Shown here: piece by piece, positions 3,941-18,497 of the stretch | Layout of the letters: every line of letters starts with the position of its first letter | Position numbering within the stretch: position 1 is the stretch's first letter | Assembly: GCA_024640225.1 (NCBI GenBank) | Contig: JAHEFK010000003.1 | Span: 1 to 32,648 of the forward strand | Direction: 5' to 3' | Source of the DNA: Bacteroidota bacterium | GTDB taxonomy: Bacteria > Bacteroidota > Bacteroidia > Chitinophagales > Chitinophagaceae | DNA length: 32,648 nt | Notes under the pieces: model-generated | What the model was told of the DNA's origin: nothing | The model's database searches: none | The model's input: only the letters and a program-made list of their open reading frames with translations | Made by a program: the position numbers and the translations under genes

Positions 3941-4738
3941 ATGCAGACAAGCACGTATAAAGACATGATGGGCCGATGGGTAGCTATATCCCATTCACCA
4001 AAACGCATCATTTCTTTAGTGCCTTCTCAAACAGAATTATTATTTGATTTAGGATTAGATGAAGAAGTGGTTGGCATTACCAAATTTTGTGAACATCCAA
4101 ATGCTTGGCGCAAACAAAAAACCATTGTTGGTGGCACTAAAAAAGTAGACTATAACATCATTGACCAATTAGCACCTGATTTAATCATTGCTAACAAAGA
4201 GGAAAACACCAAAGAGATGATTGCTGCTTTAGAGGCAAAATATCCTGTATGGATAAGTGATGTAACTACAAAAATTGAAAATGAATTAATGATTGAGCAA
4301 ATTGGTGCCCTTGTTCAAAGGCCTCAACAAGCGTTATTAATCATTTCAAAAATTCAACAGGCTTTCTCAAAATTAAAATGCTTATCTAGCGATCTTAAAG
4401 TAGCCTATTTTATCTGGAAAGATCCTTGGATGGTAGCAGCATCTAATACGTTTATACAGGAGATGCTATTAGAAAATGAATGGAGTAATGTTTTTGAGCA
4501 TAAAGAACGCTATCCTATAATTTCTATAGATGAACTAATAGAAGCAAATCCAGAAGTGATTTTTCTTTCTTCCGAACCCTACCCTTTCAAAGATAAACAT
4601 ATAGAAGAACTAGCATTGCAATTGCCCAACACCAAAATCATATTGGTAGATGGCACCTATTTTAGTTGGTATGGTAGTCGAATGCAAAATGCAACTGCAT
4701 ATTTTGAAGAACTCCATCAACAATTATATTATGGATAA
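3941..4738 (+). CDS. BtuF-like helical-backbone metal/cobalamin-binding protein
   Basis: This is a 265-residue member of the ABC-transporter substrate-binding superfamily that handles cobalamin, haem and siderophores. RIISLVPSQTELLFDLGL and VGITKFCEHP near the N-terminus, VGGTKKVDYNIIDQLAPDLIIA, and WKDPWMVAASNTFIQEML are the recurring family blocks. Oddly, it has no signal peptide or lipobox: the protein starts directly with MQTSTYKDMMGRWVAI. It may stay in the cytoplasm, and no BtuC or BtuD partner lies nearby. The stop overlaps the start of the following gene by eight bases. Family placement is firm; the ligand is not known. Confidence 0.85.
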   Translation: MQTSTYKDMMGRWVAISHSPKRIISLVPSQTELLFDLGLDEEVVGITKFCEHPNAWRKQKTIVGGTKKVDYNIIDQLAPDLIIANKEENTKEMIAALEAKYPVWISDVTTKIENELMIEQIGALVQRPQQALLIISKIQQAFSKLKCLSSDLKVAYFIWKDPWMVAASNTFIQEMLLENEWSNVFEHKERYPIISIDELIEANPEVIFLSSEPYPFKDKHIEELALQLPNTKIILVDGTYFSWYGSRMQNATAYFEELHQQLYYG

Positions 4739-6266
4739 CAAAAATATATTTAGTTCTTTTTTCCCGCTGTTCTTGTTTGTTCTTTTATGGGTGTGTTTTC
4801 ATTCTTTATATCAGTACCATATTGACCCAGACACAGCAGCTTGTTTGCAAATATCGGACGCTTATGTGCAAGGGCATTTTTGGGATGCTATTAACGGGTT
4901 GTGGAGCCCCTTGCAATGTTGGCTAGTTGCAATAATTCACTATACAACACCCCTTAGTACATTAAATGCTACGCATACTTTCAACTTTATACTATGTCTA
5001 TTATTGCTATGGCGACTAGGATACATAATAACACAATGGCAACTTTCTAATTTCAACCAACTATTACTAAAAAGCAGTTTTGCTATTTTTTTGTTTTACG
5101 CTTGTCATGCGCAACTATTTGGAGATATACTCCTGAGTTATTGCATATTAGAATATTTAAACTTAACACAAAAGCAAGATTTTTTATCTTCTACTAAAAC
5201 CGTATTAATAGCTGGTTTGCTCATTGGAATTGGCACCTTAAGCAAATCCTATGCATTTTATTTTGGCGGATTACATTTTTTGTGTTTATTGATATATACC
5301 TATAAATTCAATTTCAAAAAATATACATCACTTGCTATTTTTCTATTAGGTATTGCTATCTGTATTATTCCTTGGGTATTTTGCATACATGAAAAATACG
5401 GTGTATGGAATTTTAGTTTAGCTGGCATGCTCAATAGATCTTGGTTGCTAAACGGTACGTATCAATTAAAAAAGAGCATCCAGTATTTTATTATTCCTTT
5501 TAGCCACACAATAGCCCATTGGCAAGATCCTTTCTGGACAGAAGATCATTTTTCTACTGTCTTTGATTCCTCTTTTCTAATAAAAAAACAACTAGCGCGT
5601 TTAGTTTTTGCCTTTTGGGAATTTATTCAAAGTGCAACCATAGTAAGCTGGGCTTATCTGCTCCTGTTTTTTCAACTAGTTAAACAGCTAATCAAAAAAA
5701 ATAGCATTCAATACATTCCAATCAATACATGGTCTATAGCAATATTATGTTTGCCAATCGGCTATCTTACCATTCATGTAGAAAGCAGGTACTTATGGCC
5801 TTCACTAATACCATGCATGCTTTTTTGTTTTTCCTATTTAGATCAAGAAAGCAAAGAAAAAGATGCATTTACGTTGAAGACAAGCGCAATACTTTTAGCT
5901 TTATCATTTATAATCTTCCCTATAATTTATTTGAAGGAACATAAAAACGCAGGCAAAGAAATAGCTGTAATCGCTCAGCATCTTCCTGAAAATTTGAAAG
6001 GGGAGTACATCGTTAGCAACATAGATCCAAATCAAGGCATTATTTTAGCGTATTGGTCGAAGAGCCTTTATTGCAGTCCGATAGGAAATGTATATACGGA
6101 TGCTCAATGGCCACGTTTTGCTTATAATATGCATATATCCTACTACATTGAATTTCATGAAAACAGCGGAATCAATCACACAAAACCATTAAATTCACTG
6201 AATTATAGCGCATTACACCCTATCTATCAAACAGAAAATCTTACTATTTATCAAATTGCGCATTGA
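4731..6266 (+). CDS. Polytopic membrane glycosyltransferase (GT39/ArnT-like, GT-C fold)
   Basis: This is a 511-residue membrane protein with about ten to eleven hydrophobic segments. After the first segment it has HIDPDTAACLQISDAYVQG, the acidic first periplasmic loop expected of GT-C transferases that use lipid-linked sugars; this is followed by GLWSPL. The last roughly 100 residues form a soluble tail. The frame is open from 4650, but MDNKNIFSSFFPLF at 4731 begins right before the first membrane helix and overlaps the previous gene by eight bases, so I start there. It shares the operon with a GT9 enzyme, consistent with modification of envelope glycans. The exact donor and acceptor are unknown. 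Confidence 0.8.
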   Translation: MDNKNIFSSFFPLFLFVLLWVCFHSLYQYHIDPDTAACLQISDAYVQGHFWDAINGLWSPLQCWLVAIIHYTTPLSTLNATHTFNFILCLLLLWRLGYIITQWQLSNFNQLLLKSSFAIFLFYACHAQLFGDILLSYCILEYLNLTQKQDFLSSTKTVLIAGLLIGIGTLSKSYAFYFGGLHFLCLLIYTYKFNFKKYTSLAIFLLGIAICIIPWVFCIHEKYGVWNFSLAGMLNRSWLLNGTYQLKKSIQYFIIPFSHTIAHWQDPFWTEDHFSTVFDSSFLIKKQLARLVFAFWEFIQSATIVSWAYLLLFFQLVKQLIKKNSIQYIPINTWSIAILCLPIGYLTIHVESRYLWPSLIPCMLFCFSYLDQESKEKDAFTLKTSAILLALSFIIFPIIYLKEHKNAGKEIAVIAQHLPENLKGEYIVSNIDPNQGIILAYWSKSLYCSPIGNVYTDAQWPRFAYNMHISYYIEFHENSGINHTKPLNSLNYSALHPIYQTENLTIYQIAH

Positions 6267-7397: not shown

Positions 7398-7434
7398 AAA
7401 AAAAAGCTCCTTCGTTTGAAGGAGCTTTTTTTTA
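7398..7434. terminator. Bidirectional terminator between fbaB and murF-alr
   Basis: GCTCCTTC / GAAGGAGC (7406-7413 with 7418-7425) forms an 8-bp stem with a GTTT loop, flanked by an A run and a T run. The right flank touches the murF-alr stop at 7432-7434. Confidence 0.9.
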
Positions 7435-9897
7435 TGCTTCCATATAAACGCGTTTTACGCGTTGCGAAATGCCAGTCATAATTTCATAGGGAATCGTATT
7501 TGCCCATTTAGCCAATTGCTGAATCCTAAGTTCCTGATTGAATAGTATGACCTCGTCTCCTTCTTGCACGCTTTCAATGGAACTTAAATCAATCATACAT
7601 AAATCCATACAAATATTTCCAATGATTTTAGCGGCTTGATTATGAACCAATACATGTGCCACACCATTACCTAAATTACGCGGATAACCATCTGCATAAC
7701 CAATATTGATAACGCCTATTTTCATAGGATTCGTTGCCACAAAATTTCTACTATATCCAACACTTTCGCCTGCAGCAATATGCTTAATCTGTGCAATACG
7801 TGTTTTTAATAGTGCCACTTCTTGTAATTGCTTCTGCATTACCTCATCATCAGCAATGCCATACAAACCCAATCCTAAACGCACCATATTATAATGCAAA
7901 TTGGGATGCCTTGTTATGGCTGCAGAATTGGCCAAATGTAATAATGGAGTATAGCCTATCGTTTTGATAAGTAGCGCACTCATCTTATCAAAAAAATGCT
8001 GTTGCACTTTAGTAAAATTATCAAATTGTGTATTTTCACTAGCTGCTAAATGACTGAAAATAGAAAGTACTTTTAACGCTTTATGCTCTTGGAGTAATTT
8101 TAATAAACTTGGTAGCTCTTCTTCTGTAAATCCTAATCGATGCATACCCGTATCTAGTTTAATATGGATACCAACGATTTTATCTGCACTTCGCTGCAAT
8201 GCTTGAATAAATAATTGTAACGAATTAATATTATAAATTTCCGGTTCTAAATTCCATAAGATCATACGATCAAAAGAAGTGTTATCAGGACTCATTACCA
8301 TAATTGGCAAGGAGATGCCTGCTGTTCTTAATGCGATTCCTTCATCTGTATAAGCAACGGCTAAATAGTCTACGCCTACATGTTGTAGAGCATTAGCAAC
8401 TTCAAAACTACCACTCCCATAGGAGAATGCTTTTACCATTGCCATGGTTTTAACCCCCGGCTGTAGGTGCGACCTATAGACAGCCCAGTTATTTTTTAAC
8501 GCACTCAAATTGATTTGCATTTCCGTTTGATGCACATATTCTTCTAATTCAGCTACTATTTTTTCAAACTCAAAATTCCTAGATCCTTTTAATAAGATCG
8601 TTTCATTTTGAAATCTAAAAGTTTGTAATTGTTTTAAAAACGCACTAGTATTTTCAAAAAAGTAACACGGTATCGCTAATTGCGCTCTAATTTGTTGTTG
8701 ATACTGGAAGAGCTGTTGGCCAATTCCTACAAAACGATGCAAAGAGCATTGTTGAAGTTGCTTAATCAAAGTTGCAACAGCAGCTTGATCTTGAATAGTA
8801 GGAATATCAGACAAAATAAGGCTCTTTAATGCATGTTGTTTTTGCTGTTGCAAAACTTGCAACGCATTATGTAAAGAAACTGAATCGGCATTGTAAACAT
8901 CGCTAAGTAAACTACAATTATTGAGTCCTTTTTTTAGCTCTAAACGCATGGCAATTGTTGGCAATGTATTAAACTTATGGACGCATGCAGCATCCCATAA
9001 TTTTAACGCATATATACTTACCAAACAAGTAATGGCATTTTCTATGGAGGCCTCATCTGTAAATGGAATTACGACTGTATTAACGCCCTCCTTAGTGTTG
9101 CATTGGATTGCTGTTGAGGTAGTCTTTTTATGAATTGAAACCTGTGCAAAAGCATTCGCATTATGTAACGTCCAATTAAATAATTCTCTATTAGGGTATC
9201 TTTCCTTAATTAAATGATCCACTTGTTCATCATCGCAATTATAAATGATAGTATTGCAATCTGAAAATAATTGTAATTTTTCTTCAATTTTTATTGCTTG
9301 GTTTTCGAAACCTTCTTGATGCGCTACGCCCATATGCGTAAGCACTCCAATAGTTGGTTTTAATATCGACTGCAGTCTGTGCATTTCGTTTTTCTTGGAA
9401 ATACCTGCTTCAAAAATACCGAGATCAATTTGCTGGGGCATTTTCCAAACCGACAAGGGAACACCAATTTGTGAATTATAACTCAATGGACTTTTATAAA
9501 GGTTGCATTTATCTTCTAGCAAATAGGCCAACCATTCTTTTACGATGGTCTTGCCATTACTACCTGTAATACCTACAATAGCACATTTATGCCTTGCGCG
9601 AATGGCAGCAGCAATTGATTGCAGCGCCGATAAGGTATCATGAACTTGTATAAAATTTGCATTAGGAAATGCGTCAGTAGCAATAAAATCGCTAACTAGA
9701 AAACAACGCACCCCTTTATCATAGGCAGCCTTAATAAAATCATGTCCATTCCTATGCGATGCCTTAATGGCAACAAACAAAGTATGAGTAGCTTGCAAAA
9801 TAGTCCTGGAATCAATGGCAATTTCATCAATTTCTTGATCTTGAAAAGATTTACTTTCAAGACCCAATATGTGTTGTATATAGGATAATTTGTACAT
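7432..9897 (-). CDS. murF-alr: Bifunctional MurF ligase / alanine racemase
   Basis: This 821-residue fusion joins two consecutive steps of peptidoglycan synthesis. Residues 1 to about 450 are MurF, which adds D-Ala-D-Ala to UDP-MurNAc-tripeptide: ATP loop GITGSNGKT (109-117), KSPLSYNSQIGVPLS, THMGVAHQEGFEN, and DVYNADSVSLHNAL. From about 457 follows a PLP-dependent alanine racemase: QINLSALKNN, the PLP lysine in MVKAFSYGSG (about residue 487), KLDTGMHRLGF, VRLGLGLYG, the second catalytic base in GYSRNF, and IGYADGYPR. The fusion is a common Bacteroidota arrangement. It starts two bases after the exonuclease stop, so both are one operon. Confidence 0.95.
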   Translation of the reverse strand: MYKLSYIQHILGLESKSFQDQEIDEIAIDSRTILQATHTLFVAIKASHRNGHDFIKAAYDKGVRCFLVSDFIATDAFPNANFIQVHDTLSALQSIAAAIRARHKCAIVGITGSNGKTIVKEWLAYLLEDKCNLYKSPLSYNSQIGVPLSVWKMPQQIDLGIFEAGISKKNEMHRLQSILKPTIGVLTHMGVAHQEGFENQAIKIEEKLQLFSDCNTIIYNCDDEQVDHLIKERYPNRELFNWTLHNANAFAQVSIHKKTTSTAIQCNTKEGVNTVVIPFTDEASIENAITCLVSIYALKLWDAACVHKFNTLPTIAMRLELKKGLNNCSLLSDVYNADSVSLHNALQVLQQQKQHALKSLILSDIPTIQDQAAVATLIKQLQQCSLHRFVGIGQQLFQYQQQIRAQLAIPCYFFENTSAFLKQLQTFRFQNETILLKGSRNFEFEKIVAELEEYVHQTEMQINLSALKNNWAVYRSHLQPGVKTMAMVKAFSYGSGSFEVANALQHVGVDYLAVAYTDEGIALRTAGISLPIMVMSPDNTSFDRMILWNLEPEIYNINSLQLFIQALQRSADKIVGIHIKLDTGMHRLGFTEEELPSLLKLLQEHKALKVLSIFSHLAASENTQFDNFTKVQQHFFDKMSALLIKTIGYTPLLHLANSAAITRHPNLHYNMVRLGLGLYGIADDEVMQKQLQEVALLKTRIAQIKHIAAGESVGYSRNFVATNPMKIGVINIGYADGYPRNLGNGVAHVLVHNQAAKIIGNICMDLCMIDLSSIESVQEGDEVILFNQELRIQQLAKWANTIPYEIMTGISQRVKRVYMEA

Positions 9898-10561: not shown

Positions 10562-12280
10562 ATGAGTACTATAAACCGCACAGAGCTTTCTTCTAAACCA
10601 ATGGAAAAAAGCATGGATAGCAACCAAGATCCCATCTTTAAAAAGTATGCTAATAAGACGTTACCAACGGGTTTAATGAAAACTACCGCTGGTCTGAATC
10701 TATATACTGGCGCTTGGACAGAAACAGAAGTATTACATCTCCTAAGACGTTGTACATTCAGTCCCAACGCAACAATGGTGCAAACCTTGCTTACATTGAA
10801 TCCATCACAAGCCGTGGATCTTTTATTCACCAACGCTACAAATACGATCACTACCCCACCCATCAATGATTATAATACGGCTACTTACACCGACCCAACT
10901 GGCATCGCTCTCGGAGCCCCATGGGTAAATGCAGCGTATGGAGACAGTACGGTAAACTATAAACGAGGTATCTCCATGAAAGCCTGGTGGCTAAAACAAA
11001 TGATTAACAACAATAATTCCATTCTAGAAAAAATGGTCTTGTTTTGGCACAATCATTTTTCTACAGAATTAGGTACCGTGCCAGATGCACGCGTATACTA
11101 CAAACATCTTGAACTTATTAGAACTTACGCGTTAGGTAATTTCAAAACCTTTACCAGACAGATGACCACTGATGTTTGCATGCTCTATTATTTGAATGGT
11201 TATTTAAATACCAATACATCTCCCGATGAAAATTATGCTCGTGAATTGCAAGAGCTTTTTACCATTGGAAAAGAAAATACACCTAACTATATAGAGGATG
11301 ATGTAAAAGCAGCGGCTAAAGTACTTACCGGGTGGAGAATAAATACCACCACTACTATCCCTACTGCTTATTTTGATAGCACGAAACATCATACGTCCAA
11401 CAAACAATTTTCATCTTTCTACGGTAATGCCGTAATACCTTACCAATCGGGTGCCAATGGTGCTCTAGAAACCGATGTGCTGATAGACATGTTATTTTCT
11501 AAACAACAAGAAGTAGCAAAATTTATTTGCAGAAAACTCTATCGCTTTTTTATTTACTATACCATAGATAGTACCGTTGAAACGAACGTAATAGCACCCT
11601 TAGCGCAAATTTTTATTAATAACAATTGGGATATTGTACCCGTATTAAAAACACTCTTTAAAAGCGAGCATTTCTTCGAACTCAACTCAAAAGGTTGCAT
11701 TATTAAATCACCTATCGACTTTTTAGTAGGCATTTTTAACACCTTTAAAGTAGATGTGCCTGCTACAATGACCGATTATAATAAATCGTTGATATATAAT
11801 TATGTAAGAAGTTACGGTTCTTTAATAGCACAAGACATTGGCGATCCACCAAATGTTTCTGGTTGGCCTTCTTATTATCAGGTACCAGAATTTCATGAAT
11901 TATGGATTAATTCCAATACACTACCTAAGCGCATGGTGTTCTCCGACATGATGTTGAATAGCGGCTTCACCGCTGGCTCTGGTACAACCATCAAAATTGA
12001 TTATTTAAATTTTGTATCGCAAATACCCAATGCAGACGATCCCGTACTATTAGTAGACTATTTATGTAATCTTTTGCTGGGCATTTCAATTTCGCAAACT
12101 AAAAAAGATGCCCTGCGGGTAAATAATTTATTATCGGGTCAAACCAGTAATTATTATTGGACCAATGCATGGACAGCCTATGTAGCTAACCCAAATACAG
12201 CCAATACCAACATTGTTAAACCTAGACTTTTAGGACTTTTATTGGAACTCACCCGCTTACCAGAATTTCAATTAAGCTAA
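10562..12280 (+). CDS. DUF1800 family protein
   Basis: This 572-residue protein matches DUF1800, a helical family of unknown activity found next to DUF1501 genes in many Bacteroidota and other environmental bacteria. Visible blocks are EVLHLLRRCTFSPN (about 58-71), KAWWLKQMINN, EKMVLFWHNHFSTE, PDENYARELQELFTIG, AAKVLTGWRI, FICRKLYRFFIYY and DPPNVSGWPSY. The first 45 residues are hydrophilic with no signal peptide or Tat motif, so export is not evident from the sequence. DUF1501 starts 13 bases downstream and the two are certainly one unit. The function is unknown; physical partnership with DUF1501 is a family-level inference. Confidence 0.9.
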   Translation: MSTINRTELSSKPMEKSMDSNQDPIFKKYANKTLPTGLMKTTAGLNLYTGAWTETEVLHLLRRCTFSPNATMVQTLLTLNPSQAVDLLFTNATNTITTPPINDYNTATYTDPTGIALGAPWVNAAYGDSTVNYKRGISMKAWWLKQMINNNNSILEKMVLFWHNHFSTELGTVPDARVYYKHLELIRTYALGNFKTFTRQMTTDVCMLYYLNGYLNTNTSPDENYARELQELFTIGKENTPNYIEDDVKAAAKVLTGWRINTTTTIPTAYFDSTKHHTSNKQFSSFYGNAVIPYQSGANGALETDVLIDMLFSKQQEVAKFICRKLYRFFIYYTIDSTVETNVIAPLAQIFINNNWDIVPVLKTLFKSEHFFELNSKGCIIKSPIDFLVGIFNTFKVDVPATMTDYNKSLIYNYVRSYGSLIAQDIGDPPNVSGWPSYYQVPEFHELWINSNTLPKRMVFSDMMLNSGFTAGSGTTIKIDYLNFVSQIPNADDPVLLVDYLCNLLLGISISQTKKDALRVNNLLSGQTSNYYWTNAWTAYVANPNTANTNIVKPRLLGLLLELTRLPEFQLS

Positions 12281-12293
12281 ACCAATATCGCTT

Positions 12294-13874
12294 ATGCAAC
12301 GTAGAGACTTTTTAAAAATGGCACCGGTAGCTGCAGCAAGCACCGCTATGATGATTAATGGCTTACCCATTCAATCATTTGCAGAACATCCATTACTACA
12401 CTTGCTTGCCAAACAAACACAAGCAAATGGTCGTGTTATGGTTTTTGTACAAATGAATGGTGGCAACGATGGTTTGAATACCCTTATCCCACTAGATCAA
12501 TATAGCGCACTTTCGGTAGCGAGAGGTAATATCTTAATTCCACAAAACCAAGTGCTCCCACTTGCTGGTTTCCCTAATACAGGCTTACACCCAGCCATGA
12601 ACAAAATACGTGATATGTATGTGAATGGCATGGTGAATTTGGTGCAAAGCGTAAGTTATCCAAGCCCCAATTATTCGCATTTTAGAGCAACTGATATTTG
12701 GTTGACAGCGTCTGATTCCAATCAATATTTAGATACCGGTTGGCTTGGTCGATATTTAGACGCCGAATATCCCGGATTCCCAGTGGGTTACCCTAACGCT
12801 ACAATGCCTGATCCTTTAGCTATTCAAATTGGATCAAGTGTTTCCACTGTATTTACAGGTAATAGTGTAAATATGGGTATGGCCATTTCAGATATCAATA
12901 GCTTCTACAATATTGTCAACAACTCTGTAGATCCGGCACCGAATACGCCAGCAGGTCATGAACTTACTTTCTTACGCTATATCTCCCAACAAACACAACA
13001 ATACAATGCTGTATTACAAACAGCTGCCAATAACGCTAGCAACCTTTCTACGCAATATCCTACAGGCAATAGCTTATCAGATCAATTAAAAATTGTAGCG
13101 CGTTTAATTGCTGGTGGACTCAAAACGCCTTTATACATTGTAAACATTGGAAGCTTTGATACGCACTCCGTTCAAGTAGATGCCACCGATCACACGATTG
13201 GTGCGCATGCTACCTTACTGAAAAAATTATCAGATGCTATTTATGCTTTTTATGATGATTTAAAACTGCATGGGAAAGATGACAAAGTAGCTACCGCTAC
13301 CTTTTCAGAATTTGGACGAAGAATAAATTCTAACTCCAGTGGTGGTACCGACCATGGAACAGCTGCTCCCGTAATGGTTTTCGGAAAATCTGTTAATCCT
13401 GGCATCATTGGCTTTAACCCAATTATTCCAAGTACCGTTACTACGAGCGATAACTTACCTATGCAACACGACTTCCGCTCGGTGTATGCAGCTATTTTAG
13501 CCGATTGGTTTGATTTGCCTACCAGCGAAGTGAATAGCATCCTCTTAAGATCGTTCCCGATTCCTCCAATTTTCAAAAAAATAAATGGTGTTGCTAATAC
13601 ACTAGAAGGTGGTGATAATGAAGCGTTGGGACAAAATGCACCAAACCCAATGACAAACAATACACATATTCCATTTTATTCAGACGGATCGCATGTATTG
13701 ATTGAATTGTACAATATGGAAGGTCGTGTAGTACAAACATTAATGAATCAAGTTGTAGAGCGCGGAGCACATGAATTGATTCTTTATAGAAATGACTTAC
13801 CTGCTGGCACGTATGTTTACAAATTAATTAATGGTAAAATTACCAGCAGTAGAAAACTACTCATTATTGATTAA
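12294..13874 (+). CDS. DUF1501 protein with Tat-like leader and T9SS C-terminal domain
   Basis: This 526-residue protein starts MQRRDFLKMAPVAAASTAMM, a twin-arginine (Tat) type leader with Arg3-Arg4. The body is DUF1501, related to the alkaline phosphatase/sulfatase fold: VFVQMNGGNDGLNTLIP, GLHPAMNKI, IGSFDTHSVQ, ATFSEFGRRINSNSSGGTDHGTAAPVMVFG. From about residue 444 there is a type A type IX secretion sorting domain: GQNAPNPMTNNTHIPF, ELYNMEGRVVQ, DLPAGTYVYKL, SRKLLIID. The predicted route is Tat across the inner membrane, then T9SS to the surface. Its enzymatic activity is unproven. It follows DUF1800 directly and ends at a strong terminator. Confidence 0.92.
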   Translation: MQRRDFLKMAPVAAASTAMMINGLPIQSFAEHPLLHLLAKQTQANGRVMVFVQMNGGNDGLNTLIPLDQYSALSVARGNILIPQNQVLPLAGFPNTGLHPAMNKIRDMYVNGMVNLVQSVSYPSPNYSHFRATDIWLTASDSNQYLDTGWLGRYLDAEYPGFPVGYPNATMPDPLAIQIGSSVSTVFTGNSVNMGMAISDINSFYNIVNNSVDPAPNTPAGHELTFLRYISQQTQQYNAVLQTAANNASNLSTQYPTGNSLSDQLKIVARLIAGGLKTPLYIVNIGSFDTHSVQVDATDHTIGAHATLLKKLSDAIYAFYDDLKLHGKDDKVATATFSEFGRRINSNSSGGTDHGTAAPVMVFGKSVNPGIIGFNPIIPSTVTTSDNLPMQHDFRSVYAAILADWFDLPTSEVNSILLRSFPIPPIFKKINGVANTLEGGDNEALGQNAPNPMTNNTHIPFYSDGSHVLIELYNMEGRVVQTLMNQVVERGAHELILYRNDLPAGTYVYKLINGKITSSRKLLIID

Positions 13875-17099: not shown

Positions 17100-18497
17100 T
17101 TACTGAATTTTAGTATAGATGATATTCAATTTGATTTTACTGTTACTATGTTTGTTTCCTCCTGCCTTTAATCGGTATGCACCAGGGAAACTTACCGTAC
17201 CATTTAATCTCAAATGTACAAATTTTCTATTCTTTAATATAGCACTTTGTAGTTCTCTCGGGATATTAATGATATACTGATATACTTTCTGATTATTTAC
17301 ATATGCTACCCTTCTAGTACCGTCTATAAAATTTAAAGGTTCGTTGCTTGAAGTTGGATAACGATCTGCAATCGTATAAACAGCCCCTAAGCTATCGATG
17401 CCCGATGGAAACAAACGCACTGGCGCTTCAAACAAAGTGTCTTCTGCAGCTGCAGGAGCTATTTGCGTGATCACTAATTCTGCTTTATTAATGACAGTTT
17501 TGGTAAGTTGTGTGAATACTTTATCTAATCGAATAGTGATATCTCCTGCAGCACCTGGTTCGTTTTGGATCATGAATATAGAATCAGATACTTTACCACT
17601 TGCTGGGAAATAATTGGCAATAGGATAGTTTGAAAAGGTTCTTTTTATCCAATTTGTATGTGCACAATAGCTAGCAACAAAGCCAAATGAAGTACTTAAA
17701 GAATCGTCGGTATTGTTGTGATAATAGAAAATTATATTGGCTCTTGAATTTTGATCCAAGCCATCTAATTTAAAATACGGAATAGCTCTACCTGTTGCTG
17801 ATGCAGTGGTATCGGGCTCTACATAAATTCCTTTGAACCAAGTTAAAAAAGTTGGATAATCGGCAAATTTAGTACCTCCTGCATTGGCAAGTATACTATC
17901 GGCTACCCAAGAATTTAATTTGATGCGCAATTGCGGCGCTACTTTCACTCCCCATACGGTATTACTATCCAACAATTTTCTAATGTTCATAGTTGCCGAA
18001 CCCATAGGTTTTAACCTATTAACACCTAATTTTTGATTGGAGTAATACAGGCTATCTCTACTAAAAGCATCTTCTATTTGATAGACATTTAATTGCTGAT
18101 TGACGGTAGCATTAGAATCACCATAGATAACGCCACTATAGGGTAAAACTAAAATTGCGGAATCGATAACTGGATTGGTACCGGCAAATGTAAAAGAAGT
18201 TGTTGGCGGCACTATTTGAAAAAATGCACCGGCATAGGTTTTCCCAAAAAATGGATCGGCATTGATAACGCCGATTCCTTTGAAAATATCAGAATTGTAG
18301 TAATTATAACCCGTTAATACCGAATCATCATTTACGGTTACGGTAAGAATAGAATCAACCTCTACCGCAAAGGTATTGATGTTATCTACTGGTGGTATTA
18401 CTGTAGAATTGATTAAGGTATCTTCTTTACATGACTGCAAGGAGCTAACTAATAAAATAACAGCAGATAGCTGAACAAAAAATGATGATGCCTTCAA
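17100..18497 (-). CDS. DUF4270 lipoprotein
   Basis: This 465-residue protein has a lipoprotein signal peptide: a hydrophobic stretch, then LQSCKED with the lipidation cysteine at about residue 23. The rest is DUF4270, a Bacteroidota family with the typical opening NTFAVEVDSILTVTVNDDSVLTGYNYY and GVINADPFFGKTYAGAFFQI, and beta-rich repeats to the C-terminus. It is probably anchored in the outer membrane; the function is unknown. It sits between the glycogen-synthase-like gene (36 bases upstream) and glmS (6 bases downstream). I recall the same DUF4270 / glycogen synthase / panC neighbourhood in Bacteroides, so the order appears conserved. Confidence 0.9.
   Translation of the reverse strand: MKASSFFVQLSAVILLVSSLQSCKEDTLINSTVIPPVDNINTFAVEVDSILTVTVNDDSVLTGYNYYNSDIFKGIGVINADPFFGKTYAGAFFQIVPPTTSFTFAGTNPVIDSAILVLPYSGVIYGDSNATVNQQLNVYQIEDAFSRDSLYYSNQKLGVNRLKPMGSATMNIRKLLDSNTVWGVKVAPQLRIKLNSWVADSILANAGGTKFADYPTFLTWFKGIYVEPDTTASATGRAIPYFKLDGLDQNSRANIIFYYHNNTDDSLSTSFGFVASYCAHTNWIKRTFSNYPIANYFPASGKVSDSIFMIQNEPGAAGDITIRLDKVFTQLTKTVINKAELVITQIAPAAAEDTLFEAPVRLFPSGIDSLGAVYTIADRYPTSSNEPLNFIDGTRRVAYVNNQKVYQYIINIPRELQSAILKNRKFVHLRLNGTVSFPGAYRLKAGGNKHSNSKIKLNIIYTKIQ

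Follow-up and report, generated by a model that had tools for sequence, protein, structure and literature searches.

How might a protein with a Tat-type leader at its N-terminus and a T9SS sorting domain at its C-terminus leave the cell? We considered this question for a DUF1501 protein that is encoded in a genome of 1.85 Mb (43 contigs, 96.5% complete). We use "the window" for the whole stretch of DNA that was analysed, which is positions 1-32648 (32,648 nucleotides) of one contig. According to excerpts of two papers on T9SS (PMC10202324; PMC12618676), the signal peptide of every T9SS effector is Sec-dependent, and an excerpt of one of these papers adds that the effectors are exported unfolded. 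This agrees with the original prediction for this locus, which stated that T9SS clients normally use Sec. In an excerpt of a review, T9SS is described as moving folded proteins, and Sec is described as recognising the N-terminal signal (PMC9251779). The only secretion system that is named as being fed by Tat, in the excerpt of another paper, is T2SS (PMC5449463). A Tat-dependent client of T9SS was not described in the passages found by our search of the open-access literature.

Two predicted export signals on one protein

The features of the locus are:

12294..13874, + strand: DUF1501 protein, 526 amino acids (open reading frame including the stop), from its translation and Pfam
12294..12383, + strand: Tat-type leader, residues 1-30, from the sequence, a match to TIGR01409 at 12300-12383 (18.8 bits), and the invariance of R3 and F6 in 88 aligned rows
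12420..13583, + strand: predicted alkaline-phosphatase-superfamily core, about residues 43-430, from the fold match (Z 18.1), Foldseek, and the alignment
13641..13865, + strand: type A T9SS C-terminal sorting domain, residues 450-524 of 526, from Pfam and NCBIfam
10562..12280, + strand: DUF1800 partner, 572 amino acids, 294.6 bits (Pfam), with neither a signal peptide nor a T9SS tail seen

The DUF1501 protein begins with MQRRDFLKMAPVAAASTAMMINGLPIQSFA. Its leader is MQRRDFLK followed by 22 uncharged residues with SFA at the end, and the signal is likely cleaved after A30. This fits the consensus for Tat: RRDFLK, and then a moderately hydrophobic, uncharged stretch. The DUF1501 domain itself (PF07394) scores 58.3 bits, as compared to Pfam's cut-off of 27, and this is the only match to PF07394 in the source genome. 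At the other end of the protein, residues 450-524 match Por_Secre_tail (PF18962) with 30.8 bits (cut-off 27), and NCBIfam's model for the type A tail of T9SS (TIGR04183) scores 35.6 bits (cut-off 23). At the level of sequence, the original observation of an RRDFLK leader and a type A T9SS tail on one DUF1501 protein is confirmed.

The DUF1800 gene ends 13 bases before the DUF1501 gene starts. Elsewhere in the window, a single open reading frame (7432-9897) joins Mur ligase and alanine racemase domains, and a DUF4270 protein (17100-18497) has a neighbour with SIS and glutamine-amidotransferase domains. Another open reading frame (4650-6266, 538 amino acids) overlaps the preceding one and has no match in Pfam at E 0.001.

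Is the twin-arginine leader real?

The curated models for Tat leaders gave an equivocal verdict on the DUF1501 leader. PF10518 scored 13.9 bits, which is below its cut-off of 22.7. TIGR01409 scored 14.5 bits when run on the protein, which is below its cut-off of 16.7, and 18.8 bits in a scan of the whole genome, which is above it. In the whole-genome scan, this cut-off was reached at three places, including the DUF1501 leader. We take the other two to be a 5'-nucleotidase-like protein and an ActB-like respiratory subunit. Among 88 relatives of the DUF1501 protein, TIGR01409 matched only 3 at E 0.05.

We hold the leader to be real because of its conservation across relatives, more than because of the curated models. 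We considered two sets of relatives: 101 rows of DUF1501 proteins, and a "named" set of 80 loci whose record titles are mostly Bacteroidota, with a few Ignavibacteria or Kapaibacterium. (The Bacteroidota in the named set include Chitinophagaceae, Saprospiraceae, Hymenobacter, Spirosoma, Flavobacterium, and Polaribacter; four proteins are common to both sets.) In the 88-row alignment, which extends down to 30% identity, R3 and F6 do not vary, and at least 90% of the rows have R4. RR-x-(FLIVMY)-(LIVMF) is found near the start of 92 of the 101 rows, and the nine rows without the strict motif are mostly of RK or KRK types. If we pool both sets, 169 leaders (163 distinct) have the motif. In all 169, position +3 is F, even though the pattern permitted six residues there.

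We rejected the idea that the twin arginine arose by chance: besides the invariance of R3 and F6, the motif is found near the start in just 5 of 506 other open reading frames of the loci.

The composition of the leaders also bears on the choice between Tat and Sec. The peak hydrophobicity of the 169 DUF1501 leaders averages 1.38, versus 2.17 for 39 Sec leaders from the source genome's own T9SS clients. The two ranges overlap: no more than 80 of the 169 are less hydrophobic than every Sec leader, and the leader in the window (peak 1.40) is not among these 80. A lysine or arginine in the c-region disfavours Sec, and 132 of the 169 leaders have one there.

As a control, we examined 44 of the 47 other T9SS clients in the genome, of which 43 have a complete N-terminus. 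(The three that were left out and the one incomplete protein are at contig edges.) None of the 43 has the strict RR motif, and 4 have a looser KR/RK pattern. The DUF1501 leader is of the RR-x-F-L-K type instead of being the Sec-type signal peptide that those papers state for T9SS effectors. The DUF1501 protein shares the C-terminal type A domain with the type A T9SS clients in excerpts of PMC10202324 and PMC12618676, and SprA is encoded in its genome, but those clients are said to use Sec, and the DUF1501 leader is Tat-type. Judging from its sequence, the protein would work like a T9SS client with another route across the inner membrane, rather than as a standard member of the group.

Leaders and tails across relatives

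To find tails in the 101 rows, we used a model derived from 28 of the source genome's other sorting domains. A T9SS tail was found in 64 of the rows (E < 0.01), and 63 of these 64 also have the RR leader; the sole exception is L114. With TIGR04183, the tail was found in 63 of 88 relatives. In the named set, 73 of the 77 proteins with a complete C-terminal end have the tail, and 71 of those 73 have the RR leader. (For L269 of this set, the first ATG comes after the RR.) As far as can be judged from these proteins, the pairing of Tat leader with T9SS tail is conserved, and it is more widespread than was first noted.

On a tree of the DUF1501 cores, at least 11 changes between having and lacking the tail are required, and 8 of them are forced by well-supported branches. 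RR leaders are found in members with the tail and in members without it. Because the leader is kept either way, Tat targeting seems to be the ancestral state, with T9SS tails gained or lost by a protein that was already of the Tat type. The twin-arginine motif is also present in all 17 of the plasmid-borne relatives that we opened. Of these, 16 are from outside the Bacteroidota; Actinomycetota, Pseudomonadota, and Thermus are represented. In our phylum sample, 173 of the 395 genomes have a PF07394 protein of some kind. A scan of viral contigs, with a single protein as the query, found no relative.

Export machinery in the source genome

The original prediction named a genome that lacks tatABC or T9SS genes as evidence against it. 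T9SS genes are not lacking: the genome encodes SprA (2551 bits) and has 48 T9SS sorting domains. It also encodes TatC (221.7 bits). TatC is nearly universal (391 of the 395 genomes in the phylum sample), so its presence gives no special support. For TatA, which counts in part against the prediction, neither PF02416 nor TIGR01411 had a match in the 96.5% complete source assembly, yet TatA is present in a congener (G396) and in 7 other relatives. That is, TatA was found in 8 of 10 genomes that were searched together, and it was not found in the source genome or in G395, which is 60% complete. The 3.1-kb region around tatA in G396 has no match at all in the source genome. The simplest reading is that tatA fell into a gap in the assembly. 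Contamination of G396 or a real loss of tatA are possible as well.

The core of the DUF1501 protein

The original prediction likened the core to phosphatases or sulfatases, and the predicted structure points the same way. The AlphaFold2 model of the DUF1501 protein has a mean pLDDT of 87. When we searched with this model using Foldseek, LtaS, sulfatases, and other chains from the alkaline-phosphatase superfamily were at the top (E 2.4e-6). In VIA-align, the model matched snake venom phosphodiesterase with Z 18.1 and an rmsd of 3.4 over 253 residues, and the values for NPP enzymes were similar. In terms of the model, then, the core has an alkaline-phosphatase-superfamily fold: NPP/phosphodiesterases and other enzymes of the superfamily share it, with Z up to 18.1, but have only about 10% sequence identity to DUF1501. 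In a profile search against PDB sequences, the T9SS tail of a glycoside hydrolase was matched at E 0.0014, and an esterase was matched weakly (E 1.1).

Eight residues are invariant in the 88-row alignment: D59, S128, H129, D289, H291, E339, D353, and H354. They lie in motifs that presumably correspond to those with the metal ligands and the serine nucleophile in the alkaline-phosphatase superfamily. The candidates for a metal site and nucleophile are D59, S128, D289, H291, D353, and H354. The DUF1501 protein is likely to be a working hydrolase.

The DUF1800 partner

The DUF1501 protein was originally described as having a DUF1800 partner, and their genes are closely linked across relatives. 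DUF1800 is found in 98 of the 100 relatives' loci. In 94 of these, it directly precedes DUF1501 on the same strand, and in the other 4 it is a few hundred bases away. In the named set, 75 of the 80 loci have DUF1800; it is immediately upstream in 74, and there is a larger overlap in L281. For the remaining five, the beginning of the contig is no more than 450 bases from DUF1501. All nine annotated plasmid records have the gene order DUF1800 and then DUF1501.

Most DUF1800 proteins in these sets do not have a hydrophobic leader, a point that the original prediction did not raise. Where the N-terminus is complete, it is less hydrophobic than the weakest Sec leader in 96 of 98 proteins of the first Bacteroidota set and in 71 of 71 of the second. 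The two exceptions are L161 and, owing to an upstream ATG, L108. Nor did Pfam match a T9SS tail in any of 84 DUF1800 proteins.

Some DUF1800 proteins do have what looks like part of a Tat leader. In one set 38 of 98 DUF1800 proteins, and in the other 31 of 71, have a twin-arginine pattern within 8 residues of an ATG, versus 5 of 506 other open reading frames of the loci. An example of such an N-terminus is MDRRDFLTARRK. In 65 of these 69 proteins, the hydrophobicity of the next 30 residues is lower than that of any of the DUF1501 leaders. This half-leader may be a relic of a Tat leader or a docking peptide that is still in use. The RR-bearing DUF1800 proteins that do reach the range of the DUF1501 leaders are limited to L108, L163, L269, and L273; judging from their sequences, these few may each carry their own Tat leader. 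The DUF1800 protein in the window (10562-12280) does not have the twin-arginine motif.

At L163 (2574-5450), the DUF1800 protein begins with MDRRDFLISAAVSSFLYHESC, which resembles a Tat or lipoprotein leader, and the DUF1501 leader there lacks the RR. It looks from the sequences as if the two proteins had swapped leader roles at this locus.

We also inspected 16 DUF1800 records from outside the Bacteroidota and judged their leaders by eye. One of these is in pieces (L342). Of the 15 intact proteins, 8 have a Sec or lipoprotein leader and 7 do not. All 8 are from Pseudomonadota, and two of them are from Cupriavidus. Because 8 of 15 have these leaders, DUF1800 acts outside the cytoplasm in at least some lineages. 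Where DUF1800 has no leader, the neighbouring DUF1501 has a Tat-type leader.

L342 is on a plasmid of Thermus thermophilus. Its DUF1800 is annotated as two pieces with an intervening IS982 transposase gene, which overlaps the first piece, and this DUF1800 adjoins a DUF1501 gene.

The predicted structure of DUF1800 is mostly helical (pLDDT 92). Among solved structures, Foldseek found no match at E ≤ 0.001. The best Z from VIA was 4.1, for the C-terminal helical part, and this does not show that the fold is new. A profile search of PDB sequences found only a designed protein (E 0.47).

Known systems with similar parts

DUF1501-DUF1800 pairs that adjoin bacterial chitin synthases have been described, and a Tat motif was noted on the DUF1501 protein (PMC5122149). 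These pairs have the same two families in one operon and the same kind of motif. The pairs in the excerpt of that paper are from Proteobacteria, however, and it mentions neither a T9SS tail nor hitchhiking by DUF1800.

Tat hitchhiking is established for PaoABC, according to an excerpt of PMC4273604, and the Ni-Fe hydrogenase is given as a Tat hitchhiker enzyme in the excerpt of PMC9251779. As described there, these enzymes likewise have a Tat leader on one subunit and one or more partners without a signal. DUF1800 resembles such hitchhikers in being a leaderless partner that is encoded with a Tat-bearing carrier. Relative to those two systems, the DUF1501 carrier adds a T9SS tail, by which a second membrane would be crossed, and the partner would be DUF1800.

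How might the two proteins be exported?

We propose that DUF1800 hitchhikes on DUF1501 because DUF1800 is leaderless and its DUF1501 neighbour has a Tat-type leader. The DUF1501 hydrolase would fold in the cytoplasm, and its metals would probably be loaded there. DUF1800, which has no signal of its own, would bind DUF1501 in the cytoplasm. DUF1501 would then cross the inner membrane via Tat and would carry DUF1800 along, and the C-terminal domain of DUF1501 would lead it through T9SS to the cell surface. The most likely reason for using Tat would be the DUF1800 partner. We consider this route to be reasonably probable. It is more doubtful whether the DUF1501 tail also takes the folded DUF1800 through T9SS, in which case a single protein would provide both signals for a relay across two membranes. 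In our analysis, hitchhiking would be an economical account of a leaderless DUF1800 beside a Tat-type DUF1501, and DUF1800 might instead have a role in the cytoplasm.

If so, DUF1501 would be exported via Tat and T9SS, and DUF1800 would stay behind as a factor for folding or metal loading, like the dedicated chaperones of some Tat substrates. This would explain the near-constant pairing of the two genes and the lack of both a Sec-like leader and a tail on DUF1800 in Bacteroidota, and 7 of 15 intact DUF1800 proteins from outside the Bacteroidota are leaderless as well. But the other 8 of those 15 have a Sec or lipoprotein leader, and DUF1800 is larger than the core of its client. We think that a purely cytoplasmic DUF1800 is rather unlikely. 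It is also conceivable that DUF1501 is an ordinary Sec-T9SS client whose RR is incidental. The curated Tat models fell below their cut-offs on the protein, the hydrophobicity of its leader overlaps with that of Sec leaders, tatA was not found in the source assembly, and excerpts of the T9SS papers name only Sec (PMC10202324, PMC12618676). Against this stand the invariance of R3 and F6 down to 30% identity and the F that all 169 leaders with the motif have at +3. The twin arginine in 17 of 17 plasmid-borne relatives and the motif's absence from 43 other T9SS clients argue against Sec as well, and we regard this explanation as improbable.

The remaining alternative concerns the tail. DUF1501 might be exported by Tat and remain in the periplasm, with the tail as a relic. 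The tree calls for 11 or more changes in the tail, with the leader mostly kept throughout, and if the two proteins travelled as a folded complex, the cargo for T9SS would be large. On the other hand, the tail of this DUF1501 protein scores above the curated cut-offs, TIGR04183 matches 63 of 88 relatives, and, in an excerpt of the review, T9SS moves folded proteins (PMC9251779). We give a relic tail little chance of being correct. Overall, the interpretation that was originally offered is partly supported, and our preferred reading remains export of DUF1501 by Tat and then T9SS, with DUF1800 as the probable hitchhiker.

Implications

What is new here is a probable T9SS client with a Tat-type leader, which probably carries a partner that has no signal. 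A widespread family with Tat leaders and T9SS tails would be a direct and testable exception to statements that T9SS clients use only Sec. If our reading is correct, then T9SS takes cargo that was already folded in the cytoplasm, and the DUF1501 protein would be a natural substrate for studies of the translocon. Enzymes that mature in the cytoplasm might then become displayable on Bacteroidota. More broadly, this reading provides a concrete hypothesis for DUF1501 and DUF1800, which are both families of unknown function.
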